Source: an uncultured Bacteroidota bacterium
GTDB lineage: Bacteria > Bacteroidota > Bacteroidia > Chitinophagales > Saprospiraceae
Reading direction: 5' to 3'
Assembly: GCA_903933805.1 (NCBI GenBank)
Contig: CAIZLM010000221.1
Location: forward strand, 1 to 59,343
DNA length: 59,343 bases
Below are positions 2,423-59,205 of the stretch, piece by piece. The position numbers were made by a program, and so were the translations under genes. Position 1 is the stretch's first letter, and each line of letters starts with the position of its first letter. Below the pieces are notes generated by a model. The model was not told the DNA's origin. It saw only the letters and a list, made by a program, of their open reading frames with translations, and did no database searches.

Positions 2423-3707
2423 AGATAGGCACACAGATAAGGGCTGGTCCACAATGCGGGTTATCTTAGACCAAGAAATGCCCACCGAACCGAAACACCG
2501 ACGATTCATTGGATGGTGGCTTGCCGGTCTGTCAATCCTACTGCTGGGGTGCGGTAGCTGGTTTTGGTGGAAGGCATCCCAGCCGGTAAAATACCCGAAA
2601 AAACAGTCGTTCGCAGTGCTAAACACGCCTTTTTTTACGCCAGAAGACACAAATACCCGCTTGAATGAAAAAAATAGGCCCTTGCATACGGAACAAGGAC
2701 AGTTGAAAGTTACCGCATCCTCGTTTCCTTTGCGTGTAAATCCAACAGGTACTAAAGCCCAAAATGTTTTTCAACATAAAAATACGGGAGATGCTGCAAC
2801 AACACCATCCTCCAATCCTGTATCCAGTCAATTTATTGATTTCACGTTGAAGCACAATCCCACAGATGCGGTGGAATCGCTCCCAGCCTACAAGTTTGTT
2901 GCACTAGAACCGTTGACCAATCGGTCATTATCACCCATTCAATCCGACCAACAACCGGAACTTGATCTGATGTTGAAGCACCTTCCCCTGCCCGACAAAA
3001 AGGCCCGGCACTGGCGCCTTCAAATTGGCGTAAATTCTTCCTTGACAACAGATAACTTTCACGCCATCAACGGTGTATCCGGTGGAATGTCTATGCAATG
3101 GCCGCTGACTGGCCGCTGGGGTATTCGTTCTGGGCTGAACCTTCATCAATATACGCCATCGAGCAACAATCAACCTGTTGCTGCTGTAGCAACTTCCGAT
3201 GTTACACGTGCGCTCCAAGCTGGTTATCTATTGACAGACAACATGGGCAACTTAGTGACAAATTCAACAGGCGCAATCCCTGCTGGAAAAATCCTTGTAC
3301 CGGCAAAAAAACTCTTTTTCGTTGAAATACCACTCTTTGTTTCCTATCGTATATCGAATAAAACAAGGCTGTTTGGTGGTGTTAGCACCTCTTATGTCAC
3401 TGCAATTCAAACGGGCGATGAAGGTTACTTGGGTAGTTTATTAATCACGGGATACGCCAACAAAGACTTAAACAAATTGGCTGTGCACAACTTACAACGG
3501 TGGCGATTGTGTTACCAACTTGGTGTTGGAGCCATGTTGCGCAAAAACATAGAACTTGGGGTACGTGCATCATTACCGATACGTTCTTACGCATCGGTCT
3601 CCTCTAAAGACGTCGCCAATTTTCAGGTTGCCTCAGCCGACAACAGATCTTCAGAAAATATTAAAACATCCCTGTTCTCTGTCGGCGCAACGTATTTTTT
3701 TAGGTAA
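2406..3707 (+). CDS. Membrane protein with cytoplasmic N-terminus and C-terminal barrel domain; putative anti-sigma fusion
   Basis: This 433-residue protein has about 33 charged N-terminal residues, one membrane segment (about 34-58, GWWLAGLSILLLG then WFWW), a low-complexity linker to about 195, and a C-terminal beta-strand domain with a barrel signature. The last residues are SLFSVGATYFFR, a typical aromatic end for an outer-membrane barrel. It overlaps the ECF sigma factor gene by 17 bp, which suggests translational coupling and an anti-sigma role for the cytoplasmic stub. The Cys at about 49 resembles a lipobox but lies inside the membrane segment. The TAA stop (3705-3707) lies within the first bases of a palindromic repeat. 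The architecture is seen; the anti-sigma role is inferred. Confidence 0.8.
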   Translation: MQDLFKDRHTDKGWSTMRVILDQEMPTEPKHRRFIGWWLAGLSILLLGCGSWFWWKASQPVKYPKKQSFAVLNTPFFTPEDTNTRLNEKNRPLHTEQGQLKVTASSFPLRVNPTGTKAQNVFQHKNTGDAATTPSSNPVSSQFIDFTLKHNPTDAVESLPAYKFVALEPLTNRSLSPIQSDQQPELDLMLKHLPLPDKKARHWRLQIGVNSSLTTDNFHAINGVSGGMSMQWPLTGRWGIRSGLNLHQYTPSSNNQPVAAVATSDVTRALQAGYLLTDNMGNLVTNSTGAIPAGKILVPAKKLFFVEIPLFVSYRISNKTRLFGGVSTSYVTAIQTGDEGYLGSLLITGYANKDLNKLAVHNLQRWRLCYQLGVGAMLRKNIELGVRASLPIRSYASVSSKDVANFQVASADNRSSENIKTSLFSVGATYFFR

Positions 3708-3865
3708 CTGGTTAGCGTGGTCGCGTCTGAGACAAAAAAATGACCATTTTTTGGCAGACGAAGCGGATTTTTTTGACCGTAGCAACGCTACGGTCAAAAA
3801 AATCTGCGAAGTATGGCGGAAAATGGGCCTTTTTGGGCCAGACAGCGTGCCGCCTAACCAGTTAC
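3704..3865 (-). repeat. Palindromic repeat, full-length copy, inverted orientation
   Basis: This is a 162-bp copy with ends GTAACTGGTTA and TAACCAGTTAC. Its centre is a perfect inverted repeat, GACCGTAGC, AAC, GCTACGGTC. Nearly the whole element can fold as one long hairpin. It provides the stop codon of the upstream gene and lies between two convergent genes. Confidence 0.93.
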
Positions 3866-3898
3866 TTTTTTAGAAGATAAAGACGCGTTCGCATCGGT

Positions 3899-3933
3899 GT
3901 CTGTTGCTGCTTCCGTCGGAAGGAACAACAGAC
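3899..3933. repeat. Short hairpin between convergent genes
   Basis: The stem GTCTGTTG/CAACAGAC continues to CTTCC/GGAAG with two mismatches and a 3-nt loop. No T-run follows on either side, so a terminator role is uncertain. It lies between the end of the barrel protein gene and the end of the E1 gene. Confidence 0.35.
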
Positions 3934-3976
3934 AATATCGAGGGGATTGAAAAAGAATTACCTTGATATTGCGGAA

Positions 3977-6367: not shown

Positions 6368-6388
6368 GTCTAATCAGGTAAAGGCCCG

Positions 6389-6715: not shown

Positions 6716-6877
6716 GTAACTGGTTAAGTGGCACGATGTCTGGCTAAAAAGATCCATTTTCCGCCATACTGCGCAGATTTTTTTTACCGTAGCGCTGCTA
6801 CGGCCTACAAAAATCCGCTTCGTCTGGCAAAAAATGGCCTCTTTTTTGTCTCAGACGCGACCACGCCAACCAGTTAC
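6716..6877 (+). repeat. Palindromic repeat, full-length copy
   Basis: This 162-bp copy has intact terminal repeats (GTAACTGGTTA and CAGTTAC; one base of the right end differs, CCAACCAG for CTAACCAG). It lies in the divergent space between the E1 and DksA-like genes, so it is not tied to gene 3' ends. Confidence 0.93.
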
Positions 6878-6970: not shown

Positions 6971-7022
6971 CGCCTTATTCATGCCTCCACCGCTTATCAA
7001 ACAACTAAAAAACAAGCCACCC

Positions 7023-10347: not shown

Positions 10348-10665
10348 GCAAGAGCGTCAGTTGGAAGAAATGGTATGAAGACCGTTAATCGCCCCAAACA
10401 AACCATTATTGTTACCGTATCCAGACGGGTGCCGCGCATTCTGGATAAAAAGATGTATTTTTAATGTAACTGGTTGAATTTTAAGAATCCGTCCCGTGTT
10501 TTATTGAAGTAGCTTACAAAAAACACCACTTTGTCCGACAAGAAACAACGACTTTTTTAAACGCAGAATCGACAATACCAGTCGTTACTGAAAAAGAACA
10601 ACCGCAATCTCCGAGTTTTTGTTTTTTTTTGCTGTTGTTTCTACAAAACACCAACTGCTTTGAAT
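10348..10665. other. Divergent intergenic region
   Basis: This 318-bp space separates the deaminase gene and the giant SprB-like gene, which are divergently transcribed. It holds an isolated repeat end, GTAACTGGTT, at 10466-10475 and a T-rich tract near 10615-10640. No clear promoter consensus, RNA gene or open frame was recognised. Confidence 0.5.
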
Positions 10666-13600
10666 ATGAAAATGCGCCTCCCAATAATCCTAATTGCAAT
10701 TTTTGCTGTTATGGCAATGCCTTTGGCAGGCCAAAATTACACCATGGACGGTACATCCATTACAGATTGTAACGGAACTTTCTATGACCCGGGTGGCAGC
10801 ACAGGAAATTATTCAGACAACCAAAACCTGACAGCCACCATTTGCAGTGACGGTACCGCTGGCACCCACATTCGGCTTAGTTTTTCAGGCGCTGACATTG
10901 CGCCAGGAGATGCCTTGTGTTTTTATGATGGCCAGAATCTGGCTGCCCCACTGCTTTCCTGTCAGACCGACTACAATCCTGGACAGCCATTTTTAATCCA
11001 AGCAACAGCCGTTAATCCTACCGGGTGCCTTACGGTCTCTTTTGTTTCAAACAGTTCGGGAACAGGAACAGGCTGGGCTGCTGCAATTTCCTGTGTTCCT
11101 TCCTGCCAGTCCATCTTGGCGGACTTGGTTTCAACCAATCCGGCTGCTGTTCCTGTTGATACAGGCTGGATTGATATCTGTCCGGGTGAGCGGGTGTTTT
11201 TTGCTGGCAAAGGGGAATACTTACAAAATAATTTTGCATATCAACAATCAGATTTGACCACCACCTTCGAATGGAACTTCGGAGATGGTGGCATCGCTTA
11301 CGGCCCCAACACATCGCACCGTTTTGATCAGCCGGGTGGTTATTATGTACAACTCGCCCTGACGGATCAACAAGGATGCCGAAACACCAACCTGATCAAT
11401 CAGCGAATCCGTGTGGCGGCCAAACCAAATTTCCAATTGACCGGAATGCTTGACCAAAGTATCTGTGCCGGAGATACCGTCGCCCTCAGTGCCAATGTGG
11501 CAGGCAATGGCAACAATCAGACCCTGCTTGTTACGCCCAATGCATCGTCTTTTGCCGTAGAAGGAAGCCGATCCGACTCACTCGCGCTCCCTGATGGAAC
11601 AGGAATCCCCTACGAAACGACCATTTTTTTTACTGAATTTTCCCCAGGACAAGTGTTGGTTTCTCCCACAGACCTTGAAAGCATTTGCGTCGATATGGAG
11701 CACTCTTGGGCCAGGGATGTTGAGATATCCCTGACCTGCCCCAATGGCCAAAGCATCATTCTTCACGATCACCCCGGCAATTTTGGTGGGCAGGTTTTTT
11801 TGGGAGAACCCAACGACAACGACAATGTAAACCCTATTCCAGGGCTAGGATACGATTATTGCTGGGTGAACAACGCGCCCAACCCAACTTGGATTGAATA
11901 TGCCAATACCGTACTGGGGGGGAATGGCACCATTCCTTCCGGTGATTACAGCACCTTTAACCCCATTGCAGACCTGGTTGGTTGCCCACTCAATGGGGAG
12001 TGGAGCATCCGGGTGACCGATTGGTGGCCCATTGACAACGGCTTTATTTTCAACTGGTCATTGAAATTTTTGGATGAACTGTATCCAAACGTAGAATCTT
12101 TCACTCCGGCCCTGACGTCTTGGAACTGGAACAGCCACCCTTCTATTTTCTTTCAAACGGTAGATTCTATAGCTGCTGCACCTCAAAATGCTGGAACTGC
12201 CGGTTATACTTTCACGGTAAATGATGCTTTCGGATGCTCTTGGGACACATTGCTCACGGTATCCGTCTTGCCTCCTACCCATCCCGATTGCTTTTCGTGT
12301 GGCGCCAACTTGGCGATACTACACGATACCACCATCTGCTCAGGTGGTTCGGCAGTACTCAACGCTACCCCCGTTGCACCACCCTTTCAAGAAGTGCGGT
12401 TTGAATCCTACCCAGACTACCGCATTGGCAACGGCAACCACCCGCACAACAACCCCTATCATGCCCCAATAGAAATCAGTAGCCTTGGTTACCCCATCAT
12501 CACCAACCCTACACAACAAATAATATCGGTGTGTATGGACATCGAAACAGATTACTGCTCAGATCTTAATATTTTTCTGGAAGCTCCCAGTGGGCAATTG
12601 CTGGAACTTACCTCCGGGAATGGTGGGTCGGGTGACAACTACAAAACCACGTGTTTTTCACCCGTGGCCACCACTTCTATCGTTGGTCAGACTGCACCAT
12701 TCAACGGAACGTACAAACCAGAAGGAAACTGGAATACACTGCTTGGGGCTGCTGTAAATGGAGACTGGTCACTCCGGGTTTCTGATGGTTTCGCACCCAA
12801 CCAATTCGGCAAAGTAAAATGGTGGAGTATCGGTTTTAAAGTCAACAACAATGTCAGCTATGCTTGGGAAAATGGCGCAACGCTTTCGTGTTCAAACTGC
12901 CCCAACCCATCAGCTACGCCTGCTCAATCTACCACATACACCATCAATACCGTGGATGCTTTTGGTTGCCAACACCACGATACCGTTGACGTGCATGTCA
13001 TTTCCTTTTTTCCCGCTCCAACCGGATTGGCAGTGCTAAATATCGGTAATGGCAATATGGTTTGGGGCTGGAATGGTGTGCAAGGGGCTTTGGGCTACGA
13101 AGTACGCGTCAATGGTGGTGCATGGGAAACTGCAAACGGGGTGTTGATGCACACGGTCAATGGCCTGACGATCGGGCAGACCGTACTCCTAGAAGTGCGG
13201 GCCGTCAGTCCAGGTTGTACACCGTTGATCGCGCAATCGAGTAGTACCTATGGAAGTTGTAGCCTTGTTGCCAATTTGGACAGTACAACACCTGTGCTTT
13301 GCGCTGGTGAAGCTTCCGGTTCCGCCTTGATTTCAGTTTTGGGGGGTAATCTTCCCCTTCAATTCTCCGTTGACAATTTTCCAGGGTCATTTCCCAATGG
13401 AAATTTACTTCAATTATTGCCGGCAGGAAACCACACTGTTGTGGTACACGACGTAGTAGGCTGTGCAGATACCGTGTTTTTTAATATTGGAGCACCGCCT
13501 GCGCTGCAAATTGATTTGGTGGTGGAGCAAGTGCCTTGTCACGGCGAGCAAGGATCAGCGGGATTTACTGCCAGTGGCGGCTCCGGCAACATAAATTTTC

Positions 13601-16859: not shown

Positions 16860-17022
16860 GTAACTGGTTGGGTGGCACGCTGTCTGGCCCAAAAAGGTCC
16901 ATTTTCCGCCATACTTCGCAGATTTTTTTGACCGTAGCGCTGCTATGGCCTACAAAAATCCGCTTCGTCTGGCAAAAAATGGTCACTTTTTTGTCTCAGA
17001 CGCGACCACGCTAACCAGTTAC
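16860..17022 (+). repeat. Palindromic repeat, full-length copy with a duplicated end
   Basis: This is a 163-bp full copy between the SprB-like gene and the PorP/SprF gene. A second left end follows directly: TTTTTTCGTAACTGGTTGG occurs at 16854-16872, over the left boundary, and again at 17024-17042, just after the right boundary. Confidence 0.93.
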
Positions 17023-17030
17023 GTTTTTTC

Positions 17031-17042
17031 GTAACTGGTTGG
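17031..17042 (+). repeat. Isolated left end of the palindromic repeat
   Basis: GTAACTGGTTGG stands alone 8 bp after the full copy and is followed by unrelated T-rich sequence. It is part of the 19-bp direct duplication described for the neighbouring copy. Confidence 0.6.
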
Positions 17043-22983: not shown

Positions 22984-23059
22984 CTAACTGGTTAAGTGGT
23001 CGCGTATGAGGCGAAAAATAGGCTTTTTTGGGCCATACAGCGTGTCACCTAACCATTAC
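22984..23059 (-). repeat. Palindromic repeat, short diverged copy
   Basis: A 76-bp copy in inverted orientation (right-type arm first, GTGGTCGCGTATGAGGC, then GGGCCATACAGCGTG). The palindrome core is missing and both ends have point changes (CTAACTGG and AACCATTAC). It lies in the divergent space upstream of the DUF1028 gene. Confidence 0.8.
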
Positions 23060-30322: not shown

Positions 30323-30485
30323 GTAACTGATTAGGTGGCACGCTGTCTGGCCCAAAAAGGTTCATTTTCCGCCATACTTCGCAGATTTTTTTGATCATAG
30401 CGCTGCTATGGCCTACAAAATCCGCTTCGTCTGGCAAAAAATGGCCACTTTTTTTGTCTCAGACGCGACCACGCTAACCAGTTAC
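30323..30485 (+). repeat. Palindromic repeat, full-length copy
   Basis: A 163-bp copy. The left end has one change (GTAACTGATTA); the right end TAACCAGTTAC is intact. It lies between two genes on the same strand. Confidence 0.93.
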
Positions 30486-32466: not shown

Positions 32467-32544
32467 GTAACTGGTTAGGTGGCACGCTGTCTGGCAAAAA
32501 ATGGCCACTTTTTTGTCTCAGACGCGACCACGCTAACCAGTTAC
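32467..32544 (+). repeat. Palindromic repeat, short copy (85-bp internal deletion)
   Basis: A 78-bp copy with intact ends. Its junction GCTGTCTGGCAAAAAATGG joins the left-arm GTCTGGC directly to what follows the right-arm GTCTGGC of full copies, removing exactly 85 bp. Confidence 0.92.
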
Positions 32545-33604: not shown

Positions 33605-33767
33605 GTAACTGGTTAGGTGGCACGCTGTCTGGCCCAAAAAGGTCCATTTTCCGCCATACTTCGCAGATTTTTTTGACCTTAGCGCTGCTATGGCTTACAA
33701 AAATCCGGTTCGTCTGGCAAAAAATGGCCACTTTTTTGTCTCAGACGCGACCACGCTAACCAGTTAC
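33605..33767 (+). repeat. Palindromic repeat, full-length copy
   Basis: A 163-bp copy with perfect 11-bp terminal repeats, directly after a true terminator. This argues that the repeat is not itself needed as a terminator here. Confidence 0.94.
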
Positions 33768-34951: not shown

Positions 34952-35291
34952 CCGTTGACTTGATGGCCAACACTGGCGTTGTATAATATGCAGAAGCCGC
35001 TTCTGCCGAAGGCAAAAAATTGCGTAACAGGGTGGATCGCACGCTGTCTGGCCCAAAAAAGGGGGCTTTTCGGGTCAGACAGCGTGCCGCTTAACCAGTT
35101 ACAAAATAGCATAGTGCTCCCATTACGCCGGCAGATCGGGCTGGGGGGTGTACCGCAGATAAGGCTTGATGACCGTTACGCCCTGATGTTATGATCGAAA
35201 CATGGTTATAGGCCCAAATATTTGTGTTCGATTACTGAACCATACCTGTACAAGCGTGTTTGATATCAAAAGAATCAATAAAAACTATCTT
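34952..35291. other. Intergenic region between the ThiF/MoeB-like and glutathione peroxidase genes
   Basis: This 340-bp space contains a small perfect hairpin (GCAGAAGC and GCTTCTGC, 34990-35006) without a T-run and a variant palindromic repeat (35024-35102). A frame extending the peroxidase to 35202 is present but unlikely to be used. Nothing else was recognised. Confidence 0.5.
35024..35102. repeat. Palindromic repeat, variant with two left-type arms
   Basis: A 79-bp copy in which both arms are of the left type: CACGCTGTCTGGCCC and, inverted, GGGTCAGACAGCGTG. The right-type arm (GTCTCAGACGCGACC) is absent. The left outer end is diverged (GTAACAGGGTGG); the right outer end is TAACCAGTTAC. 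Confidence 0.85.
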
Positions 35292-36494: not shown

Positions 36495-36572
36495 GTAACT
36501 GGTTAGGTGGCACGCTGTCTGGCAAAAAATGGCCTATTTTTTGTCTCAGAAGCGACCACGCTAACCAGTTGC
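36495..36572 (+). repeat. Palindromic repeat, short copy (same 85-bp deletion)
   Basis: A 78-bp copy with the same GTCTGGC junction as the copy at 32467. The right end ends in CCAGTTGC instead of CCAGTTAC. It lies between convergent genes. Confidence 0.92.
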
Positions 36573-39594: not shown

Positions 39595-39757
39595 ATAAAT
39601 GGTTGGCGTGGTCGCGTCTGAGACAAAAAAGTGGCTATTTTTTTGCCAGATGAAGCGGATTCTTCAGGCCGTAGCAGCGCTACGGTCAAAAAAATGGGAG
39701 AAGTATGGCGGAAAATGGGCCTTTTTGGGCCAGACAGCGTGCCACTTAATCATTTAC
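39595..39757 (-). repeat. Palindromic repeat, full-length copy, inverted orientation, diverged ends
   Basis: A 163-bp copy ending 28 bp upstream of the TIR-like gene's start codon. Both terminal repeats carry changes (TAAATGGTTGG and TTAATCATTTAC), while the core with CCGTAGCAGCGCTACGG is retained. Confidence 0.88.
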
Positions 39758-41596: not shown

Positions 41597-41674
41597 TTAA
41601 CTGGTTAGTTGGGACGCTGACTGCTCCAAAATGGACACTTTTTTGTCTCAGGCGCGACCATACTAACCAGTTAC
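41597..41674 (+). repeat. Palindromic repeat, short diverged copy between ftsA and ftsZ
   Basis: A 78-bp copy whose right boundary touches the last base of the ftsA stop codon. Its length equals the other short copies but the inner sequence has diverged (GACGCTGACTGCTCCAAAATGG). If the cluster is one transcript, it forms a hairpin between ftsA and ftsZ. Confidence 0.88.
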
Positions 41675-43008: not shown

Positions 43009-43151
43009 AACATAACGTGTTTTAGTGGTGGGTTTCGATGGATTTTGACATATTTGACGCAGCCCGAAACCCTTTCCTGCGACAAAAATACTATTTATTA
43101 AACTTTTTGTTTTCTTTTTTTATGCGTAAGCATCAAATACAACCGCTTTTA

Positions 43152-44558: not shown

Positions 44559-44565
44559 TGTGCCT

Positions 44566-45336: not shown

Positions 45337-45353
45337 GGTATTGTATAACGGTT

Positions 45354-46742: not shown

Positions 46743-46750
46743 AATGTTTA

Positions 46751-47812: not shown

Positions 47813-47821
47813 CGTTTTCAG

Positions 47822-48181
47822 TTACCGCTTCAGTTCAAGCACCTCAATGCGCCCGCGATCCATTTGAATTGAAAGGTTATCCCCCTTCAGGGAAATTATT
47901 TTTATTTTAACGTCTTCGTACGAATCAGGGACCAAAAAAAGCGAGTCGTTTTTAATATGCCAGTCTCCTTTGTCTATTCTGGTATCTACGATCAGGTTAT
48001 AGACCCCGTCTTTGGAAAGCACCATGGTAACAGCTGCTGGATCGGTTGCTATAGGTTTGCCTTCCGAGGTCCAGCGCACACCATGCCATTCCCCGACGAT
48101 GTCTTTGGACAATTGTTCATCGTTGTTGCAAGCCAATAGGAAAAGGACTATCATTGATAAACAGTAAGCGAAATATTTCAT
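47822..48181 (-). CDS. Small lipoprotein, lipocalin-like, inserted in the dcw cluster
   Basis: A 119-residue lipoprotein: MKYFAYCLSMIVLFLLAC with lipidation at Cys18, then IVGEWHGVRWTSEGKP and short alternating strands to the end (DSLFLVPDSYED, DNLSIQMDRG, IEVLELKR). It is a paralogue of the lipoprotein at 25712-26098, with matching positions along the mature chain. The frame could begin at 48208, but that would overlap murG; ATG 48181 leaves 13 bp after the murG stop. Function unknown; co-transcription with murG and the glycosyltransferase is likely. Confidence 0.72.
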   Translation of the reverse strand: MKYFAYCLSMIVLFLLACNNDEQLSKDIVGEWHGVRWTSEGKPIATDPAAVTMVLSKDGVYNLIVDTRIDKGDWHIKNDSLFLVPDSYEDVKIKIISLKGDNLSIQMDRGRIEVLELKR

Positions 48182-48194
48182 TTCAACGGTTCGG

Positions 48195-49298: not shown

Positions 49299-49347
49299 AG
49301 TATCACCATATTATTGCTGGCGAAAAAGTTCAAATTCAAGGTTGTAT

Positions 49348-50481
49348 TTATTCCAAAGATTCAATATATTTGCTCACACTCAGTATTATACCCAGCGAGA
49401 CACAGGTGAACAACAAACTGGTGCCCCCCATTGAAATAAGGGGTAGCGTAAGTCCTGTTGCCGGCACAAGATTAACATTTACGGCAATGTTGGCCAACGC
49501 TTGTACTGTCAGCAACAAACTCAGGCCAATGGCTAGGAATGCCCCAAAGGCTTTGGGACTTCGGGTTACGAGTTTCACATTTCGTAGAAACAACAGTACG
49601 TAAAGGGCTAACACCACGGTAGCACCCACTAGGCCATATTCTTCACAAATGATGGCGTAAATAAAATCTGCATGCGCGTACGGCAAAAAATTTCGAATCA
49701 AGCTGTTGCCTGGGCCTTTCCCAATGATTCCCCCTTTTGCGATGGCAATTTTTGCCTGTTGCACTTGGTATCCACCATCTTCTACATTGGAATATTCGTT
49801 CAGCCTCGATATCCAGGTATCAACCCTGACAAGACCTGCTTCCGGGTACAATTTACCAATGGCAATCAAACCCGCCAATACCACAACGCCCAAAATTCCG
49901 AGCAAGAAAATATATTTCCAACTTACCCTTCCGATAAACATCAACAGAATACAAGTTGCGAACAACACCGCTGCGGTACTCAGGTTTGCAGGTGCGATAA
50001 GCCCACAAACAATGAGCACCGGCACCAAAATGGGCATGAAAGCATCTTTAAAACTGGTGATATAGTCTTGTTTTCGGGTCAATTCCCGGGCGATATAAAT
50101 AATGAGCGCAATTTTTGCGAATTCAGACGGCTGGAAACTGAACCCCGCCAAACTGATCCAACGGCTGGCATCGTTGATGTTACGACCAAAGGCCAGTGTA
50201 AACATCAGGAGGGGGATTGCCATCAATATCATGATTGGGGCAAAACGTTGGTATTGCCGGTAGTGTAGCAGGTGGCACAGGTAAATAATCACAAAACCAA
50301 ATGCCATCAACACCATGTGTTTCACCAGAAAAATGGTCGTATTGCCTCCCCTAGAGCGCCAAGCTTCCCAGCCTGAGGCCGAGTAAACTGCCAGGATGCT
50401 GAACAGGCTCAGCACGGCGATGATCATCCAAATGGTGCGATCGCCTTTTAATTCTGCTGCTATTCGGTTTCCGAGTGACAT
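49348..50481 (-). CDS. ftsW: Peptidoglycan glycosyltransferase FtsW (SEDS family)
   Basis: A 377-residue protein with about 10 membrane segments. SEDS hallmarks are visible: FGRNINDASRWISLAGFSFQPSEFAKIALI (in parts), a large extracellular loop with YQVQQAKIAIAKGGIIGKGPGNS, AHADFIYAIICEEYGLVGA and the late segment LVPATGLTLPLISMGGTS. FtsW polymerises lipid II at the septum together with FtsI. It lies 31 bp after murD and 49 bp before murG. Confidence 0.95.
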   Translation of the reverse strand: MSLGNRIAAELKGDRTIWMIIAVLSLFSILAVYSASGWEAWRSRGGNTTIFLVKHMVLMAFGFVIIYLCHLLHYRQYQRFAPIMILMAIPLLMFTLAFGRNINDASRWISLAGFSFQPSEFAKIALIIYIARELTRKQDYITSFKDAFMPILVPVLIVCGLIAPANLSTAAVLFATCILLMFIGRVSWKYIFLLGILGVVVLAGLIAIGKLYPEAGLVRVDTWISRLNEYSNVEDGGYQVQQAKIAIAKGGIIGKGPGNSLIRNFLPYAHADFIYAIICEEYGLVGATVVLALYVLLFLRNVKLVTRSPKAFGAFLAIGLSLLLTVQALANIAVNVNLVPATGLTLPLISMGGTSLLFTCVSLGIILSVSKYIESLE

Positions 50482-50512
50482 TTATCCGCTGGTTTGGTTC
50501 CGTGACATGGTA

Positions 50513-51901
50513 TTAATGGGTGTAGAGCGCTAGTACGGCTTCCCGAAACTGCGTTCCACGGTCTTCATAATTTTTAAACAAATCAAAACTGGCACAAGCG
50601 GGGCTGAGGAGTACTGTATCGCCTGCATGGGCAAGCGATGCCGCTTTTTGAACAGCTTCTTGAGCACTTCGGGTTTCTACAATCGGCTTGTTCAACGCAC
50701 CGAAAACACGCAAGATGGTCGTATTGTCCAAGCCCATACAAACAATGGCAGAAACGTGCTGTTGCACCAAGGGAAGCAACGGCGTATAGTCATTGCCCTT
50801 GTCTTGTCCGCCTACTATCCAGACCGTTGGTGTATCCATGGATTGGAGTGCATAGTTGACAGCATCAACATTGGTGGCTTTTGAATCGTTGATCCAAGTA
50901 ACACCGGCTTTGACGGCGACTTTTTCGAGGCGATGCTGGGGTGGCGTAAATGTATTGAGTCCTTCCTGAATTTTAGCCGCTTTGGCGCCGAGCAGTAAGG
51001 AAGCCCGGATGGCACACGCGGCATTGAACATGTTGTGGGGGCCTCGAAGGGCCGACATCGTCAAGTCAAAATCATGTTTTCCGACTTTAATCCGTCCATT
51101 TTTACAGAAACCTTTTTTGATAGCGATCTGGCTTCCACGGGTGGACACAAGGCTGTTTTGGTCATCTGCAGGAACTGTGCGTTTACAAGTCGTCATGCCA
51201 GCGGCAACCTCAGGATCAAATCCATTGTAGATAAATTTGTCACCCCTTTGCTGGTTCAATGTGACCCTGAACTTCGATTGCACATAACGTTCCAGCATAT
51301 AATTGTAACGGTCGAGGTGATCTGGGGTAATGTTAAGCAGTATCGCTATGGAAGGTTTAAAAGCTTGAATATCATCCAGTTGAAAACTACTCATTTCAAG
51401 TACAAAAATCCGTTGGCCATCTGTTTCGCGGCGGTTCAGGAGGTCCTCGAGCACCATACGAGCGAAGCTATTGCCCACATTACCGCCTTTCCGTGTCTGT
51501 AACCCGGCGGTAAGGAGCAGGTGGTGCGTAAGTTCGGTGGTGGTGGTTTTTCCGTTGGAGCCCGTGATAGCGACGATTTTGCACCTGCCTGCGTATCGGT
51601 ATCCAAACTCGATTTCTCCAATCACGTTGATACCTTTTGCACGGACAGCACGCATCACCTCCGACGACTCCGGAATACCGGGGCTTTTGATCACCTCGTT
51701 GGCATTCAAGATAGCCTCGAGCGTGTGTCTATGCTCTTCCCAAGCAATACCATGGGCGTCAAGCTCCTTTTTAAAAGGCAATTTTATGGTTCCCGTATCA
51801 GAAACCAATACGTCAAACCCCAAGTGCTTTGCCAAAAGGGCAGCACCTGTACCGGATTCACCGGAGCCTAATATGACGATTTTATTACGCATGGTATTCA
51901 T
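50513..51901 (-). CDS. murD: UDP-N-acetylmuramoylalanine--D-glutamate ligase
   Basis: The 462-residue Mur ligase adds D-glutamate to UDP-MurNAc-L-Ala. Motifs: KIVILGSGESGTGAALLAKH, the ATP loop AITGSNGKTTTTEL, ILLNITPDHLDRYNY and the C-terminal INDSKATNVDAVNYAL and WIVGGQDKGNDY. The start ATG shares one base with the mraY stop (TAATG), a sign of translational coupling; the in-frame ATG 9 bp later (51892) is an alternative. Confidence 0.96.
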   Translation of the reverse strand: MNTMRNKIVILGSGESGTGAALLAKHLGFDVLVSDTGTIKLPFKKELDAHGIAWEEHRHTLEAILNANEVIKSPGIPESSEVMRAVRAKGINVIGEIEFGYRYAGRCKIVAITGSNGKTTTTELTHHLLLTAGLQTRKGGNVGNSFARMVLEDLLNRRETDGQRIFVLEMSSFQLDDIQAFKPSIAILLNITPDHLDRYNYMLERYVQSKFRVTLNQQRGDKFIYNGFDPEVAAGMTTCKRTVPADDQNSLVSTRGSQIAIKKGFCKNGRIKVGKHDFDLTMSALRGPHNMFNAACAIRASLLLGAKAAKIQEGLNTFTPPQHRLEKVAVKAGVTWINDSKATNVDAVNYALQSMDTPTVWIVGGQDKGNDYTPLLPLVQQHVSAIVCMGLDNTTILRVFGALNKPIVETRSAQEAVQKAASLAHAGDTVLLSPACASFDLFKNYEDRGTQFREAVLALYTH

Positions 51902-53160
51902 TATCTGATTTTCAGCGTGATAATGGTTGCAACAGCCAACAATATTTGTACAATCCAGAAGCGCACCGCAATGGTCACTTCATGGAGACCTTTTTTCTGA
52001 TAGTGGTGGTGCAGAGGCGCCATTAAAAACAATCTTTTCCCAACACCGAACTTCCTTTTAGTCCGCTTAAACCACCACACCTGCATGATAACAGACATAT
52101 TTTCAACCAAAAATACGCCACACAACAGTGGAATCAACAGTTCTTTCCGCAATATGATGGCCATCGCCGCGATGATTCCACCGAGGGTAAGACTTCCGGT
52201 ATCTCCCATAAAAACCCTTGCCGGAAACACATTGTACCACAAAAAGCCTATACAACCACCCAGTAAACAGGCTGAAAAAATAACCATTTCACTGCTATTG
52301 GGGATGTAAAGGATGTGCAAAAAATCTGCTGCGACTGAATTGCCACTCACATACGCGAGAATACCCAACGCAACACAAACAATGGCCGAAACACCCGCCA
52401 ACTGGCCATCTAGACCGTCCGTCAAATTGGCGCCATTGCTCACCGCCGTGATGACAATGATCGACATTATGACAAATAAAATTGAGCTCAGGTCCCTGGC
52501 ATTGTCGCCCAAAAACGGGAGTATTTTCGAATAATCCAGTTCGTTGTTTTTAAAAAATGGTACGTTGGTGATGTGTGCTTTTGCGTACACCATTTCTGTG
52601 TAAATCCCTGGTTTTAAAGGGTCTTTGACGAATATCGTGTCCGTTATCACGTACCCATTCCGAGCAGCGACTTCAGCATCGAGTCGCACCACAACCTCAT
52701 CATTCATTAACATGGTCACACCGACAATCAAACCGAGCCCCACCTGTCCCATTATTTTAAACTTTCCCTTCAGACCCTCTTTATCTTTTTTAAACACCTT
52801 TATATAGTCGTCCAGAAAACCAATCGCGAACATCCAAACGGTACTGAAGAGCATGATTAATATGTACACATTGTCGAGCCGGGCCATCAGGAGACAGGGT
52901 ATCAAAGTTGCCGCAACGATGATAATCCCTCCCATGGTGGGCGTGCCCGCCTTTGAATTTTGACCAGCCAACCCCAAATCCCTGATCGTTTCACCGATCT
53001 GTAAGGTTCTCAACCATTCAATGACTCGACGGCCGATCACCAAAGAAATGAGCAGCGAAAGCAGCAGGGCTACCCCGGCCCGAAACGAGATAAACTTAAA
53101 CAACCCGGCACCGGGCAGGTCGTAATGCTGTTTTAAATATTCAAAAAGATGGACTAGCAT
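51901..53160 (-). CDS. mraY: Phospho-N-acetylmuramoyl-pentapeptide-transferase
   Basis: The 419-residue membrane enzyme makes lipid I from UDP-MurNAc-pentapeptide and undecaprenyl phosphate. It has about ten membrane segments and the family motifs [55 protein letters not shown] and [13 protein letters not shown] hydrophilic insert of about 75 residues (about 150-225), with [23 protein letters not shown] (in parts), is longer than in proteobacterial enzymes and typical of Bacteroidota. The stop overlaps the murD start by one base. Confidence 0.96.
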
Positions 53161-53271
53161 ATTCTATTATTGCCAAGCTGCGTTTACAATGACGGTACAT
53201 GGTTGATTTGATATGTTTTGATTAAACGGATTGTCGATTGAACATACATCCTTCGCCAACCATTTCAAAAG

Positions 53272-53303
53272 GCAACTGGTTATGTGGCACGCTAACCAGT
53301 TAC
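53272..53303. repeat. Palindromic repeat, minimal copy between murE and mraY
   Basis: 32 bp: the left end GCAACTGGTTATGTGGCACG joins directly to the right end CTAACCAGTTAC, without any core. It lies in the 188-bp space between murE and mraY, whose remainder shows no other feature. Confidence 0.8.
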
Positions 53304-53348
53304 TTCAAAAGATAGTTCCACTATTACTATAAGTCCCCTTCGATTCTA

Positions 53349-54806
53349 TTACCCTTCTCGCATCATACGTAGGAGCACCAGTTTGTCATCAAAAGGATAT
53401 TTCACCCCTTGAATATCTTGGTATTTCTCATGGCCTTTGCCGGCAACCAGGATCACGTCATTGGCACCGGCCAATCGCTCAGCCGTTTTAATGGCCTGTT
53501 CTCGGTCTTGAATAACGATCGTTTTCTTGCGTCCATCGGTATCCAGTCCGGCTTCCATATCTTTCAAGATAGCTGCCGGATCTTCTTTGCGCGGGTTATC
53601 GCTTGTCAGAATAAGGTGATCACTCCAAAGGGCGCAAACACGGGCCATTACGGGGCGTTTGGTTTTATCCCTATCACCTCCTGCGCCGGCGACCGTGATA
53701 ACACGGGACGATTTTTTTTTCAATTTAGCGATTGTTTCCAGCACTTTATCAAGTGCATCGGGCGTGTGTGCGTAATCAACGATACCGATACAGCCTGGTT
53801 TAGTGGGATGAATGAGGTATTCAAACCGACCTTCAGCGCCGCTCAGGTTACTGATTACCGTCAGGGCGGCCATCTTATCCACCCCGAGCAACATGGCTAC
53901 CGCATAGGTTGCTGTTAGATTGTACGCGTTGAACTCCCCGATCATACGGGTATGAATAGCGGCGCCATCCAACTCCAAGTGCAGGCCTTCTAGGCTATTT
54001 TCAATGATTTTTGCTTTATAATCTGCCGATTTTTTTAGCCCATACGTTGATTTTGTCGCTTTTGTATTTTGGAGCATAATAGCACCATTGCGATCATCAA
54101 TATTGGTCAAGGCAAAAGCACTTTTGGGCAATTCATCGAAGAATTGCTTTTTGGCGTCTCGGTATTCTGCGAACGTGTGGTGGTAGTCGAGGTGATCGTG
54201 GGTAAGGTTGCTAAACACCCCACCGGCGAAAGTGGCCCCAGCTATCCTCCGCTGGTGAACAGCGTGGCTGCTTACTTCCATGAACACATAACGACATCCG
54301 GCTGTGACCATGTCCTGCAAAAGCCCATGCAGACTAACAGCATCCGGCGTCGTGTGCGTGCTCGCGATAATCCGCGCACCAATTCTATTTTCAACAGTAC
54401 CAATCAGGCCACACGGATGGCCAAGTCGGGTAAAAAGTTGCCACAACAACGTTGCTGTGGTGGTTTTTCCATTGGTACCGGTAACGCCCACCAAGGTGAG
54501 GTGTTCCGAAGGGTTTTGATAATATTGCGCAGCCATTTGGCCAAGTACTTCAGCAGCATCAGCAACGCGCACCGAAACAATGTCCGTCTGAGCAATGGTA
54601 TCGTTCTCATACACCAAAGCGACAGCCCCGTTTTGAATGGCCGCATCGACAAACTGGTGGCCATCGACCTGCGCACCACGAACTGCCACAAAAACATCCC
54701 CTGGCTGAACCGCGCGGGAATCAAACCGGATACTGCCGATTTCAACGGCGAGGCTGCCGTGTGTGTCCAGCAGGTGGACATTTTTGAGTAGATGCTCGAG
54801 TGTCAT
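53349..54806 (-). CDS. murE: UDP-N-acetylmuramoyl-tripeptide synthetase, meso-diaminopimelate type
   Basis: A 485-residue Mur ligase adding the third residue of the peptide stem. Motifs: SIRFDSRAVQPGDVFVAVRG, the ATP loop GVTGTNGKTTTATL, MEVSSHAVHQRRI, FSNLTHDHLDYHHTF and the C-terminal LTSDNPRKEDP. The DNPR motif marks specificity for meso-diaminopimelate over lysine, so the peptidoglycan is predicted to be DAP-type. It starts 21 bp after the ftsI stop. Confidence 0.96.
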   Translation of the reverse strand: MTLEHLLKNVHLLDTHGSLAVEIGSIRFDSRAVQPGDVFVAVRGAQVDGHQFVDAAIQNGAVALVYENDTIAQTDIVSVRVADAAEVLGQMAAQYYQNPSEHLTLVGVTGTNGKTTTATLLWQLFTRLGHPCGLIGTVENRIGARIIASTHTTPDAVSLHGLLQDMVTAGCRYVFMEVSSHAVHQRRIAGATFAGGVFSNLTHDHLDYHHTFAEYRDAKKQFFDELPKSAFALTNIDDRNGAIMLQNTKATKSTYGLKKSADYKAKIIENSLEGLHLELDGAAIHTRMIGEFNAYNLTATYAVAMLLGVDKMAALTVISNLSGAEGRFEYLIHPTKPGCIGIVDYAHTPDALDKVLETIAKLKKKSSRVITVAGAGGDRDKTKRPVMARVCALWSDHLILTSDNPRKEDPAAILKDMEAGLDTDGRKKTIVIQDREQAIKTAERLAGANDVILVAGKGHEKYQDIQGVKYPFDDKLVLLRMMREG

Positions 54807-54827
54807 AGCCGATAATTGTTCAATCGT

Positions 54828-56984
54828 TCATTCAAGGTACAGGGTACAAGTTTGTCCGTTGGCTTTGGTACCCACTGCCAAACTTTGGCGTCGGACCTTA
54901 CCAATTCCCTCCACGCGCACGCGGCATCCACGGTTTTCCAAGATGTAGATAGCATCTTTCAACCCCATTCCGATGACAGACGGAACAGCTTTGTCTGAAA
55001 TAATTCTATTTTTCAACATCAAAGAATCTCCTTTTTCCGCCACCAGCACAGACCATTCCTGCAGCGCTTTGTCATCTTCCTGGTCTTTGAAGTAATCCAA
55101 ACCCAGCCACTGCAAGCTCTCCTTCATATCCTTGACAGTGCCTGCGTCAAAAGAGGGCATCTGTTTGGTCATCAACTTATTTGGAACATTTTTATTGATG
55201 GGCGTGTGGAGTTCCGCTTTCATGGCGTAACACTTGTCCGCGATGGATCGAAACACCGGGGCTGCCACTTCAGCGCCGTGATAGCCACCCCGTTCGGGCT
55301 CACTGATAACGACGATACAAGAATAAAAAGGGTCATTGGCAGGAAAAAAACCACAAAATCCGGCTTGGTGACGAATACCATTGGAGGCGCGAAATTTGTG
55401 ATAATTCAACTGTGCCGTACCTGTTTTGCCGGCAATAGCATAGTTGGCCGATAGAATATTTTTTGCTGTGCCGTTGAGTACAACTTCCCGTAGCAATTCG
55501 TTGGCTTTGTCGATGGTTGACTTAGAGGCAATACTGCGTTTGACCACCGTTGGTTGGAATTCCTTCAGGATTTCACCGTATCGTTCCGTGCGCTGCACGA
55601 TATAGGGTTTCATCATTCGTCCGTTGTTGGCCACCGCGTTGTAAAAAGTCAGGAGTTGCATGGGCGTCAGCAGCAGTTCATACCCGATGCTCATCCAGGG
55701 CAAGGTTGTTCCCGACCATTCACTTTTTGGATTTTTAGGGTCCTTGATGATGGGCGCTTCTTCTCCCCCTACTTCAATATCGGTTGGCAAGTCTAGTCCG
55801 AAGTCGCGCAGGTGCGCTAAAAACAAGGATGGGTTTGCTTTAAAATATCGCTGCGTAAGCGTTGCGGTACCCACATTGCTTGACTGAGCAAAGACTTGGC
55901 GGATAGACATGGAGTCCAGTCCATGGGGAACTGCGTCCACAAGTTCTTCGTCGTAAATTTTGACTTTTCCTCCATAGACAGGAATTTTATCGTCAAAATT
56001 TTTCAAAGCGCCCTCCTCCATCAGGGCCATGAAAGTAGCGAGTTTGAACATGGAACCAGGCTCTACCCGTTCTCCCACGGCATAATTATAGGTTTCCCAC
56101 CATCCCTCTGGGGTACGGCCGATATTGGCCATGGCGCGAATTTTTCCTGTTTTCACTTCCATAACAATGGCGCAGCCGTGATCCGCGTTGTGGGTTTGGC
56201 AAGCGGTGAGCAAGCTATTTTCTGCGATATCCTGAATATTGATATCGAGGGTTGTGACGATATCATCTCCTGCTTCTGGTTCAATTTCTGCCAGATCATT
56301 GACTGGAATATAGACATCACCGGGCACACGGATCATCAATTGTTTGCCCTCTTTGCCCTCTAAAACATTGTTAAAACTACCCTCCAGACCTACCGGCAGG
56401 GCACCTTCTCGGGTATATCCGATGGTGCGTTGTGCCAATATTTTGAAAGGGCGTTCTCTGCGATTTTTTTGTTCGAGGATAAAACCGCCTTTGTACCGTC
56501 CCTGCCGAAAAATTGGAAAATTCTTCACCATCATGGCTTTGGAATAAGACAATTCCTTGGCAATAGGAACAAATCGAATACCGCGGGCCTTGCTGTCTGT
56601 ACTATCGCGCAGTCGGCGCAACCACCCGGCGTAGGCTCCCGGCGTAAACTGTTGATCCACGTACGTAGAGAGCAGCCATCCGAGGCTGTCCGTAGCCTGC
56701 ACATTAAAAATCTCGTTGGTAAGGCCTTCAGCCTTGGCATCAAAGTGAATATCAAAAAAGGGCAGAGACGTTGCGAGCAGCGAGCCATCGTCGGCCAAAA
56801 TATTACCCCTTTGGGAAGGTGCGTCCACCCATTTTACATACAGGCTGTCTGATTTGGCCTCCCATTTAGGAGCATCTTTCACACTGATTTGAAAAAGTCG
56901 GAGGAAGATGACAAACGCAAGTCCCACCACCCCGGCAGCGACCAGGTAGACACGCAATAGGACTTCGTTTTTAATGTTTAGCAC
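54828..56984 (-). CDS. ftsI: Septal transpeptidase FtsI (PBP) with C-terminal PASTA domain
   Basis: The 718-residue class B penicillin-binding protein has one N-terminal membrane anchor (about 9-30), a PBP dimer domain (SQRGNILADDGSLLATSLPFFDIHFD in parts, to about 225) and a transpeptidase domain (about 265-610) with SMFK near residue 308 as the SxxK nucleophile motif, SSN in FAQSSNVGTA and KTG in IAGKTGTAQLN near 519. A PASTA domain ends the protein (VPSVIGMGLKDAIYILENRG). It cross-links septal peptidoglycan together with FtsW. It follows the ftsL-like gene by 130 bp. Confidence 0.95.
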   Translation of the reverse strand: MLNIKNEVLLRVYLVAAGVVGLAFVIFLRLFQISVKDAPKWEAKSDSLYVKWVDAPSQRGNILADDGSLLATSLPFFDIHFDAKAEGLTNEIFNVQATDSLGWLLSTYVDQQFTPGAYAGWLRRLRDSTDSKARGIRFVPIAKELSYSKAMMVKNFPIFRQGRYKGGFILEQKNRRERPFKILAQRTIGYTREGALPVGLEGSFNNVLEGKEGKQLMIRVPGDVYIPVNDLAEIEPEAGDDIVTTLDINIQDIAENSLLTACQTHNADHGCAIVMEVKTGKIRAMANIGRTPEGWWETYNYAVGERVEPGSMFKLATFMALMEEGALKNFDDKIPVYGGKVKIYDEELVDAVPHGLDSMSIRQVFAQSSNVGTATLTQRYFKANPSLFLAHLRDFGLDLPTDIEVGGEEAPIIKDPKNPKSEWSGTTLPWMSIGYELLLTPMQLLTFYNAVANNGRMMKPYIVQRTERYGEILKEFQPTVVKRSIASKSTIDKANELLREVVLNGTAKNILSANYAIAGKTGTAQLNYHKFRASNGIRHQAGFCGFFPANDPFYSCIVVISEPERGGYHGAEVAAPVFRSIADKCYAMKAELHTPINKNVPNKLMTKQMPSFDAGTVKDMKESLQWLGLDYFKDQEDDKALQEWSVLVAEKGDSLMLKNRIISDKAVPSVIGMGLKDAIYILENRGCRVRVEGIGKVRRQSLAVGTKANGQTCTLYLE

Positions 56985-57423: not shown

Positions 57424-57543
57424 TGTATTTGTTATTGAGGATTACGTGATTTATACATAAAAATTTCGATTTCTTGGTTCGAAGTCAAGCCCGAAAGACC
57501 CCACGGTATTGTGTCAGACGTGAGCACCCCTTTGGGTTACATA

Positions 57544-58467
57544 TTATTGCAGCATTATTTTTTTTCCAACCCTCAATTTTGAACTTCTGGATCGGACATT
57601 CCTAGATACTTCAGACGCACTGGGTTCAATTGCTTTTTTGGTGACAAGCTGCCACGGCCGTTCAATGTTGCCGTAAAAGTCCTTTTTCATTTCACCTTTT
57701 GTATTGCCTGTTTTAAGGAAATTTTTTACCATTCTGTCTTCCAAGGAATGGAAAGCGATAACAGCCAGAATACCGTCAGGTGCCAGCATTTCATAAGAAG
57801 CTTGTAAAAAATCTTCCAATGCGCCCAATTCATCGTTTACTTCCATGCGCAGGGCCTGAAAAACCTGTGATCGATACCGCATTCTATCGCCTAGGAAATA
57901 CTTTTCACACAGATCAACGAGGGTAACCGTATTTCTAAATTGGTTGCTTTCCCGAACTTTAACCACGGCCTCTGCGAGCGTTTTGGCATTGCGCACCTCA
58001 CCCAAATCACCAAAAACCCTTTGCAATTCTACGACTGTATATTGGTTGAGAATATCTGCTGCTGTTATACCTTCTCGGGTATCCATGCGCATATCCAAGG
58101 GTGCATCAAAACGGTAAGAAAAACCGCGTTCAGCACTATCCAGTTGGTGGCTACTCACACCCAGGTCGGCCAGAATTCCCTGCACACCGCCAGGTTTCAC
58201 CCCTTCAGACCGCACTTGTTGCTTTAAATGCCTAAAGTTCGAATGTACAAAAGTGAAATTGGCGCTTTCGGCAAACAAATCAGCAGCAGCGTTCTGCATG
58301 GCATCATTGTCTTGATCAAAAGCAAACAAGTGCCCTTTTCCTGCTAATTTTTCCAATATCAGACCAGCATGCCCACCACCACCAAAAGTGGCATCCACGT
58401 AAATACCATTCGGGACTATCCGAAGTGCGTCAATAGATTCGTGCAGTAGAACACTTACGTGATACAT
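57544..58467 (-). CDS. rsmH: 16S rRNA (cytosine1402-N4)-methyltransferase
   Basis: The 307-residue SAM-dependent enzyme methylates C1402 in the ribosomal P site. Motifs: YHVSVLLHESIDAL at the N-terminus, the SAM-binding VDATFGGGGHAGLILE, GILADLGVSSHQLD, RGFSYRFDAPLDMRMD, and the C-terminal VIAFHSLEDRMVKNF and RNVRSRSSKLRV. Normal length. It lies 70 bp after mraZ, with a GGAGGAGG stretch in the spacer about 23 bp before the start. Confidence 0.97.
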   Translation of the reverse strand: MYHVSVLLHESIDALRIVPNGIYVDATFGGGGHAGLILEKLAGKGHLFAFDQDNDAMQNAAADLFAESANFTFVHSNFRHLKQQVRSEGVKPGGVQGILADLGVSSHQLDSAERGFSYRFDAPLDMRMDTREGITAADILNQYTVVELQRVFGDLGEVRNAKTLAEAVVKVRESNQFRNTVTLVDLCEKYFLGDRMRYRSQVFQALRMEVNDELGALEDFLQASYEMLAPDGILAVIAFHSLEDRMVKNFLKTGNTKGEMKKDFYGNIERPWQLVTKKAIEPSASEVSRNVRSRSSKLRVGKKIMLQ

Positions 58468-58537
58468 GGTATTTCGTATGTTTTATTTGCCTCCTCCAAG
58501 GTGGTGTCACCGACTGGACGGGATACAAATAGTTGCT

Positions 58538-59023
58538 TTACAATTCAATATCGCCCACGCCGTCAGTGCCACCGCCCATTACGTCATTTGCAAGGTCAGC
58601 AAACGTATTGGAGTCAATTCCTGCAACTTGTGCGTGTGCTTCGGGCGACCATATTTCGATACGGTCGTCCATGGCTACGAGGATGGCTTCTTTGCTGAAG
58701 TTGGCGTAGTCCATTAAAGTTTTTTGCAATAAAATCCGATCCGCGCTATCGGTTGTGATTGGATAGGCTCCCAAGTAAAAAGAGCGAATAAAGGCGCGAT
58801 TCCGGTCATTAAAACGATTGAGACGGCTCAACTTGGCAGCGATAGCATCCCAGACCGGTTTGGGGTAAAGTGTGAGACACTTTTCAAATCCCCTGTTCAC
58901 CACAAATTCATAACCGGAACCCTCGCCTCCGGGTTTGTCACCCAGTTGACGCAGTAGCGCGGTTGGAAGGCGCATACGACCCTTATCGTCTAGGGCCACA
59001 GGATATTCGCCTATGAGTTGCAT
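58538..59023 (-). CDS. mraZ: Transcriptional regulator MraZ
   Basis: The 161-residue protein has two SpoVT-AbrB-like domains, each with the DxxxR motif: DDKGRMRLPTALL (about 10-22) and DSADRILLQKTL (about 90-101). MraZ forms rings and binds direct TGGGN repeats in its own promoter, repressing the dcw operon in bacteria studied. Two TGGGA boxes 10 bp apart are visible upstream at 59291-59305. It is the first gene of the cluster. A full palindromic repeat lies between the putative promoter and the start codon. Confidence 0.96.
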   Translation of the reverse strand: MQLIGEYPVALDDKGRMRLPTALLRQLGDKPGGEGSGYEFVVNRGFEKCLTLYPKPVWDAIAAKLSRLNRFNDRNRAFIRSFYLGAYPITTDSADRILLQKTLMDYANFSKEAILVAMDDRIEIWSPEAHAQVAGIDSNTFADLANDVMGGGTDGVGDIEL

Positions 59024-59043
59024 GACGGTACTGTTAAATTACT

Positions 59044-59205
59044 GTAACTGGTTAGGTGGCACACTGTGTGGCCCAAAAAGGTCCATTTTCCGCCATACTT
59101 CGCAGATTTTTTTGACCGTAGCGCTGCTACGGCCTACAAAAATCCGCTTCGTCTGTCAAAAAATGGTCACTTTTTTGTCTCAGATGCGACCACCTATCCA
59201 GTTAC
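59044..59205 (+). repeat. Palindromic repeat, full-length copy in the mraZ leader
   Basis: A 162-bp copy ending 20 bp before the mraZ start codon. Left end intact; right end CTATCCAGTTAC has one base lost or changed. If transcription starts near 59268, the whole hairpin is in the 5' untranslated part of the operon. Confidence 0.93.

Follow-up and report, generated by a model that had tools for sequence, protein, structure and literature searches.

Palindromic MITE-Like Repeats of Saprospiraceae and Their Conserved Core as a Possible Bent Scaffold for Different Transposases

Introduction

Miniature inverted-repeat transposable elements (MITEs) are usually viewed as crippled copies of one transposon, to which they are tied by their ends, and many of them, though not all, have an interior derived from that parent by deletion. 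We describe here a family of palindromic repeats, 162–163 bp long when complete, found dispersed in positions 1 to 59,343 of contig CAIZLM010000221.1, a stretch of 59,343 bases that was analysed whole and is called the window below. It belongs to the 4.2 Mb genome (336 contigs) of a Saprospiraceae-type Bacteroidota, the home genome (G000; in our labels G stands for the genomes compared, L for loci and C for contigs). Here, one core of nearly constant length stands behind several types of target-site duplications, and A/T tracts, spaced as the turns of the DNA helix, account for most of its best-conserved positions. On balance, we favour the view that the repeats belong to a MITE superfamily, the core of which would be a bent, symmetric and length-locked scaffold pairing the ends for different transposases.

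A described MITE of Bacteroidota, MITECca01 of Cardinium, is about 240 bp long and occurs in 169 mostly intergenic copies; reported from one strain only, it has as parent the IS982-family element ISCca4, the sequence of which is partly kept beyond the ends (PMC9769881). The present repeats are likewise mostly intergenic MITE-like elements of a Bacteroidota, but their core spans genera and end types. The Correia, ERIC and YAPL/RU-2 elements are also short, palindromic and mostly intergenic (RU-2 is about 168 bp long), but they live in other hosts, and the accessible portions of their descriptions report neither one core with several unrelated ends nor phased tracts (PMC10969869, PMC2229807). 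Within the accessible portions of the open-licence PMC literature (including PMC10969869, PMC8024623, PMC2229807, PMC9769881 and PMC10288884), neither this family nor a MITE core with several end types is described, in keeping with an initial annotation of the window that did not recognise the family.

Results and Discussion

Number of Copies and Evidence for Transposition

Counted on both strands with at most one mismatch, the end GTAACTGGTTA is present 26 times in the window, whereas 100 shuffles contained it 0.77 times on average and never more than 5 times; a blastn search with four copies gave 13 merged intervals, which cover 1,542 of the 59,343 bases and correspond to seven copies of 162–163 bp, five of 76–79 bp and one of 32 bp. 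The initial annotation had counted at least 13 copies, as we find, and had described the 11-bp ends of the full copies as perfect, which is true of both ends of the copies at 3704 and 33605, whereas the other five of the seven have at least one mismatch. It had also proposed searching the complete genome and its relatives, and this search yielded 74 exact-end pairs of full size in the home genome (none with the reversed control) and the core in relatives as well. A sample of 252,104 bases, taken from 25 contigs or contig starts chosen by number, yielded 13 full, 11 short and 4 smaller copies, from which we extrapolate, roughly, about 217 full and 184 short copies per genome. Sequences compared by eye indicate that the 78-bp form is what remains of the full element once the stretch of about 85 bp that separates two direct repeats, GTCTGGC, is lost.

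Several lines of evidence bear on transposition. First, in 583,624 bases (the window plus 40 stretches, some of them picked for their matches), 8-bp target-site duplications (TSDs) flank 24 of 40 full copies exactly and 30 of 40 with at most one mismatch, against 0.6% in a control where left flanks were crossed with right flanks of different copies; for the short forms the figures are 14 of 30 with at most one mismatch and 0.5%. In the window, such duplications, absent from the initial annotation, accompany 11 of the 13 copies at no more than one mismatch (nine were found by script and those of the copies at 39595 and 35024 by eye; the exceptions are the copies at 22984 and 41597). Second, the flanking 8-mers contain 79% A+T, and for 57 of 70 copies any overlap with an open reading frame (ORF) amounts to 20 bp at most, according to a simple ORF caller. 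Third, the 162–163-bp copies have the hallmarks of MITEs in being short and non-coding, with 11–12-bp terminal inverted repeats and TSDs. In our judgement the repeats are almost certainly non-autonomous, MITE-like elements that transpose. The first suggestion of a MITE with its helper elsewhere is supported by the 8-bp TSDs, by the AT-rich and mostly intergenic sites and by relatives in which IS66-type transposons carry the same ends (see below).

A large REP/BIME-like unit had been suggested at the same time. Similarly to REP/BIME units and their RAYT transposases, the repeats are palindromic, mostly intergenic and abundant; unlike them, they have true inverted ends and 8-bp duplications, features that do not fit Y1/RAYT elements as these are generally known, since Y1 transposition leaves no target duplications. 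Knowing, in addition, that DDE transposons carry the same ends, we regard a REP/BIME-type element moved by a Y1 (RAYT) transposase as very improbable, though no search for RAYT genes was made.

One full copy gave no blastn match in plasmids or phages, and a distant element, L368, gave none in plasmids; one pattern search of viral contigs was also without a match. Contigs C2, C4, C48, C49, C213 and C259 of the home genome start inside a copy or within about 25 bases of one, so the repeat probably fragments the assembly and may hide both copies and the helper. Some copies abut, separated from their neighbour by a gap of just 7–8 bp; this holds for 5 of the 86 right ends in the sample, and examples are window 17022–17031, L070, L082, L084, L085 and L008 1145–1478. 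Insertion may favour targets beside an end already in place, or the copies may dimerise.

Candidate Helper Transposases

IS66 elements have 5'-GTAA ends and generate 8-bp duplications, and the GTAA ends and 8-bp duplications of the repeats therefore point to this family. Single-ORF (ISBst12-like) IS66 transposons, which share with the repeats 12-bp GTAACTGGTTAG ends and 8-bp duplications, are their probable partner; unlike these transposons, the repeats encode nothing, and their likeness to three same-end transposons is confined to the outer 12–16 bp. A blastn comparison of eight elements with eight transposons found agreement only in the outer 12–19 bp (strongest interior match, E 0.059), so that by this measure the interior is not a deletion derivative of such a parent.

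The same-end transposons lie in relatives. In G009 (Saprospiraceae bacterium ACE_BAC3, a congener), GTAACTGGTTAG ends enclose an IS66-type gene in 3,130 bp, nested IS1-like copies included, with the exact 8-bp duplication TTTTCAGA; the protein has the IS66 domain, with the partner-protein domains PF03050 and zf-IS66. In G025 these ends delimit 1,050 bp in which the middle of the gene is missing, and the duplication has two mismatches. Locus L242, from the Bacteroidota metagenome-assembled genome KLAP184, has the same ends around an IS66-type gene (1,554 bp) and the exact duplication ATTTTTTT. An open relative of 466 amino acids with GTAAAAACTTAG ends occurs in G007, where four of five like copies have exact duplications. 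More generally, 58 of 80 IS66-type loci of named genomes have GTAA...TTAC ends, and 19 of these 58 have an exact 8-bp TSD, in a survey where the choice among candidate ends favoured duplications. In L048 of G009, two near-identical gene pairs, IS1-like as judged by eye, are nested in the IS66-type element at 688–1523 and 2824–3650 and thereby interrupt its transposase.

The home genome has three IS66-domain matches, none with the ends of the repeat: L036 is a transposon that has GTAAGCCTCCCAC ends and is flanked by an exact 8-bp duplication, L037 is a fragment, and L038 has GTAACTATCCAG ends but lacks a matching duplication. It also retains 68 residues, 63% identical to the matching transposase and followed by TAACCAGTTAC, on C332, and a related 36-residue fragment on C104. 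The look for a transposase with the repeat's own ends, as first proposed, led in relatives to IS66-type transposons, none with an apparently intact frame, whereas at home it met only these decayed fragments. Two transposase searches gave matches in 8 and 9 of the 42 genus genomes, our own included. We hold with good confidence that the helper is of the IS66 type: such a single-ORF DDE transposase would recognise the 12-bp GTAACTGGTTAG ends and insert the repeats, with 8-bp duplications, at AT-rich and mostly intergenic sites.

One Core Behind Several Types of Ends

A blastn search with one copy gave matches in 8 of 99 relatives, often in the core only, and the elements of those relatives had GTAACTGGTTA, GTAAAAACTTAG, GTAACTATCCAG or TAGACTTGTTGCGG ends. 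Fifteen elements, own copies included, could be aligned over 167 columns, and a covariance model of the core (about 110 bp) was built from these 15 sequences. It matched 33 of the 42 genomes of the genus, 107 of the 298 in the family set and 13 of the 295 in the class set, the home genome being counted each time; with that genome set aside, the core was detected in 32 of 41 congeners and in 12 of 294 class genomes beyond the family. For 56 of 58 loci the ends could be located, and although the finder allowed about 128–261 bp, the resulting elements measure 158–165 bp in 49 of the 56 cases; the census of ends omits loci without detectable ends (2 of 58, and 8 of 80 in a second set). Beyond the family, where the locus start was assumed and loci near contig ends are misread, 10 of the 18 non-own loci are again palindromes of 155–166 bp, five have no ends and three measure 191–242 bp. 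A search of G020 with the GAGC end pattern, made without the core model, found fourteen pairs with a spacing of 161–164 bp and two with a spacing of 48 bp. Length and ends carry the more weight here because they were not used in picking the loci.

The likeness of the cores was compared with that of shuffles preserving pairing and short tracts (200 per element). The tests of likeness, phasing and curvature covered 51 of the 56 elements (length 156–166 bp, or 150–170 bp for likeness), and L124 of the home genome was both among the tested elements and among the likeness references. All 200 nulls were exceeded by 44 of the 51 elements. Between 1 and 6 of the 200 nulls equalled the score of another six, while 41 did so for L173 and 65 for a control MITE of G014. 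The low scores of L141, L146, L148 and L173, near the null, would suit an explanation in which only the GTAA group is one family and the other elements are unrelated palindromic MITEs gathered by convergence. We consider it quite unlikely, for besides the 44 elements above all nulls, the GACTTG-type cores of G008 and G023 match by plain blastn (E 3.5e-12 and 1.4e-13), the lengths agree in spite of the wide range allowed, and the few genomes matched beyond the family again yield mostly palindromes of the same size.

The duplications were compared between end classes, which were chosen after the ends had been seen; five duplicate loci and the own-genome locus were left out, 16 loci were set aside as 'other', and the flank controls were run before duplicates were removed. 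GTAA-type elements have 8-bp duplications with at most one mismatch in 44 of 67 cases (control 0.9%). GAGC-type elements have exact 3-bp duplications, mostly TTA/TAA, in 13 of 17 cases (control 0.379) and 8-bp ones in none of the 17, GAAG-type elements have 3-bp duplications in 5 of 10 (control 0.100), and GACTTG-type elements have TA/TA flanks in 9 of 12 (control 0.782, a high value because the TA target is fixed). The type of duplication goes with the ends and not with the core. Very likely, then, one core stands behind several end types, and from the 3-bp and TA duplications on this same core it follows that other transposases probably move those elements.

IS5-family transposons with DUF4096, in G013, G040 and G034, are a possible partner of the GAGC type, though not of the window's end type. 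Located through PF13340 in other congeners and G034, they are about 860–875 bp long, have TTA duplications and the ends GAGCATGTTTGGA (G013), GAGCATGTTTAAAAA (G040) and GAACGTGTTCGGGAA (G034), and resemble GAGC elements, the likeness to L137 and L148 spanning 9–19 bp at the ends. The GAGC end pattern in G020 and G034 gave one possible pair of 1,874 bp, on C34 of G034. For the GACTTG-type ends GACTTGTTGCGG, end-pair searches of G008 and G023 revealed no partner; the pairs are 159–160 bp long, with a few smaller ones, solitary ends and one pair of 216 bp. A pair of 1,171 bp in L186, the left end of which belongs to a 160-bp element while the right end shows two mismatches, was not taken as a transposon.

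The lineages of cores and ends do not agree. The elements of G000 and G014 have the same GTAACTGGTTAG ends, with cores 65% and subterminal parts 44% identical, whereas those of G014 and G003 differ in their ends, with cores 87–88% and subterminal parts 78–87% identical. In G014 alone, a single kind of core is found with three GTAA-type variants (GTAACTGGTTAG, GTAACTGTTTAG and GTAACTATTTAG) and also in copies of which the two ends differ; as these variants differ by single changes, stepwise drift is enough within the GTAA ends. The 3-bp and TA types go beyond drift, and their ends must have been replaced; that both ends were replaced through arm-to-arm copying, which a palindrome would allow, is our guess.

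G014 also has a different, 178-bp palindromic MITE (L031 2893–3070) with GTAAAAACTTAG ends and an exact 8-bp duplication; it shares its ends, but not its core, with some elements and served as the control. In G003, L399 and L402 contain a 185-bp variant of the core-bearing element, about 23 bp longer than usual (two copies measured), and two more matches there have the same extended core.

Phased A/T Tracts and the Proposed Scaffold

Among 48 diverse elements, columns are on average 57% identical; 26 of them vary little or not at all, and 18 of these 26 fall in six runs of A or T. These tracts, the limits of which were set by eye, have a conservation of 0.78, as compared with 0.60 for the other internal columns. 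The tract centres lie about 16, 26, 37 and 48 bp to each side of the element centre, and a scan from 6 to 20 bp, which uses no structural parameters, gave a best period of 10.6 bp. The mean resultant R(10.5) is 0.675, against 0.410 (standard deviation 0.039) for palindrome-preserving shuffles and 0.498 for random genomic pieces with at least three tracts, a value inflated by their few tracts.

Tracts phased at 10.6 bp predict curved DNA, beyond what the palindrome-preserving nulls give. With two wedge models, the predicted curvature differs from these shuffles by mean z values of −4.2 and −4.0 (42 and 43 of 51 elements below −2) and from dinucleotide shuffles by −5.35. The predicted median end-to-end distance is 33.8 nm of 55.1, versus 51.2 for random pieces, and the predicted median end angle is 114 degrees versus 43. 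The mean of 40 home copies lies below 99.0% and 98.4% of random pieces, and below 96.3% and 93.2% of AT-rich pieces, in the two models; for the control MITE no curvature is predicted. According to these models the element is probably curved in solution. IHF-like sites do not mark the elements (22% of them, versus 19% of window 162-mers), nor do the length steps correspond to whole helical turns: the step from 162 to 78 bp fits eight turns and the other short forms fail.

We propose that the imperfectly palindromic core could act as a DNA scaffold independent of the transposase, the phased A/T tracts bending the element symmetrically and drawing its two ends together. Any end-binding transposase might then pair the ends across a piece too short for easy looping, the fixed length would hold both ends in phase, and a core aiding any transposase would persist as ends drift or get replaced. 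That curvature is a selected function we put forward tentatively. The boldest form of the proposal, in which a curved, two-fold symmetric, length-locked scaffold has moved between ends of the IS66, IS5 and TA types in the Saprospiraceae and elsewhere in the Bacteroidia, the shape between the ends, and neither the ends nor an enzyme, being the heritable selfish unit, is possible but less likely than not. If a scaffold of this kind exists, short elements can evolve shape as a mobility trait and switch helper, which would help to explain the high copy number of very short MITEs and their survival past their transposons; the idea is directly testable with out-of-phase tracts.

Alternatively, the repeats may be an ordinary old MITE lineage with a functionless, merely inherited core; its ends would drift, and now and then be exchanged, among IS66-type transposases related to each other, and the curvature would be a by-product. 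The single-change end drift of G014 on one core agrees with it, as does the fact that the 78-bp and 32-bp forms moved although they lack most of the core. It is weakened because tracts and length are conserved in diverged cores, at 57% identity, and the ends with 3-bp and TA duplications exceed drift; we see it as a possible account, though a doubtful one.

Another explanation starts from the fold: the palindrome would work as an RNA or DNA hairpin (terminator, RNase III substrate, small RNA or cruciform) to the benefit of host or element. The imperfect self-complementarity first noted is real: the copy at 3704 has a stable computed RNA fold in either orientation, with energies of −89.8 kcal/mol (z −11.3) and −72.8 kcal/mol (z −9.7) for its two strands. 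Two-sided changes affect 18 of the 36 pairs predicted, one strand scores above the other with the covariance model, and genes with their 5' end facing a copy lean weakly to one side, the core pointing toward the gene in 17 cases and away in 10. Genes with their 3' end facing a copy, in contrast, are evenly split (same strand 11, opposite strand 11), and by simple ORF calls the 53 placeable copies lie in 10 convergent, 29 tandem and 14 divergent gaps, for 10.8, 28.1 and 14.1 expected: copies track intergenic length, with no preference for a gap orientation. A terminator is rejected, the T runs lying before the central stem and not after it, no Rfam family matched in the window at gathering score, and helical phasing exceeds that of palindrome-preserving shuffles. 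With no clear gene-orientation bias, a hairpin function is weakened, and we find it unlikely.

Returning to the core as a scaffold for different transposases, the following points weigh against it. First, the comparison for empty sites, proposed at the outset, was run on 46 joined flanks and gave 8 spanning matches, all at the same site and none a true empty site. Second, no intact transposase with GTAACTGGTTA ends was found, that of G009 being interrupted, that of G025 gapped and that of L242 departing from frame near its end (by eye); G014, with 85 core matches, had none in either transposase search, and G020, rich in GAGC ends, had no PF13340 match. Third, the cores were selected with the covariance model, so their similarity is partly selected, the tract limits and end classes were fixed after the data had been seen, and the flank controls are high for the GAGC and TA types. 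Fourth, the curvature rests on the wedge parameters of the two models; L142 and L178, two of the 51 elements, show no predicted curvature, and beyond the family the phasing varies, with R from 0.09 to 0.88 in 8 elements. Fifth, the 78-bp form, which lacks most of the core and is predicted to be mildly curved, duplicated its targets all the same, and the two-sided changes in stem pairs are what a hairpin function would give.

Copies in the Window and Their Surroundings

Table 1. Repeat copies located in the window, with their flanking duplications.
Feature	Position	Strand	Flanks
Full copy, 162 bp, both ends exact	3704..3865	-	TSD TTTTTTAG/TTTTTTAG
Full copy, 162 bp	6716..6877	+	TSD AAGTAATT, exact
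Full copy, 163 bp	16860..17022	+	TSD ATTTTTTC/GTTTTTTC, 7/8
Solitary left end, 8 bp beyond full copy 16860-17022	17031..17041	+	
Short form, about 76 bp, ends decayed	22984..23059	+	no TSD
Full copy, 163 bp	30323..30485	+	TSD AAATTACT/AAATTAAT, 7/8
Short form, 78 bp, GTCTGGC-bounded loss of about 85 bp	32467..32544	+	TSD 7/8
Full copy, 163 bp, both ends exact	33605..33767	+	TSD TTTTTATC, exact
Short form, 79 bp, interior sequence differs	35024..35102	+	AAAATTGC/AAAATAGC, 7/8, by eye
Short form, 78 bp	36495..36572	+	TSD GAAGTTAA, exact
Full copy, both ends decayed	39595..39757	-	GTGGAATT/GTTGAATT, 7/8, by eye
Short form, 78 bp	41597..41674	+	no clean 8-bp TSD
32-bp form, hardly more than both ends	53272..53303	not assigned	TSD TTCAAAAG, exact
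Full copy, 162 bp	59044..59205	+	TSD AAATTACT, exact

The GTAA of the first copy listed supplies the stop codon of the ORF at 2406–3707. At 10660–16836 the window encodes a protein of 2,058 amino acids that contains numerous internal repeats and ends in a tail of the gliding type; judged from its translation, it is probably a large surface adhesin. The minus strand of 41674–56984 looks, from two translations only, like a cell-wall/division cluster, with an FtsW-like protein at 49348–50481 and a penicillin-binding protein at 54828–56984; the 78-bp copy that ends at 41674 and the 32-bp form lie beside or within it.

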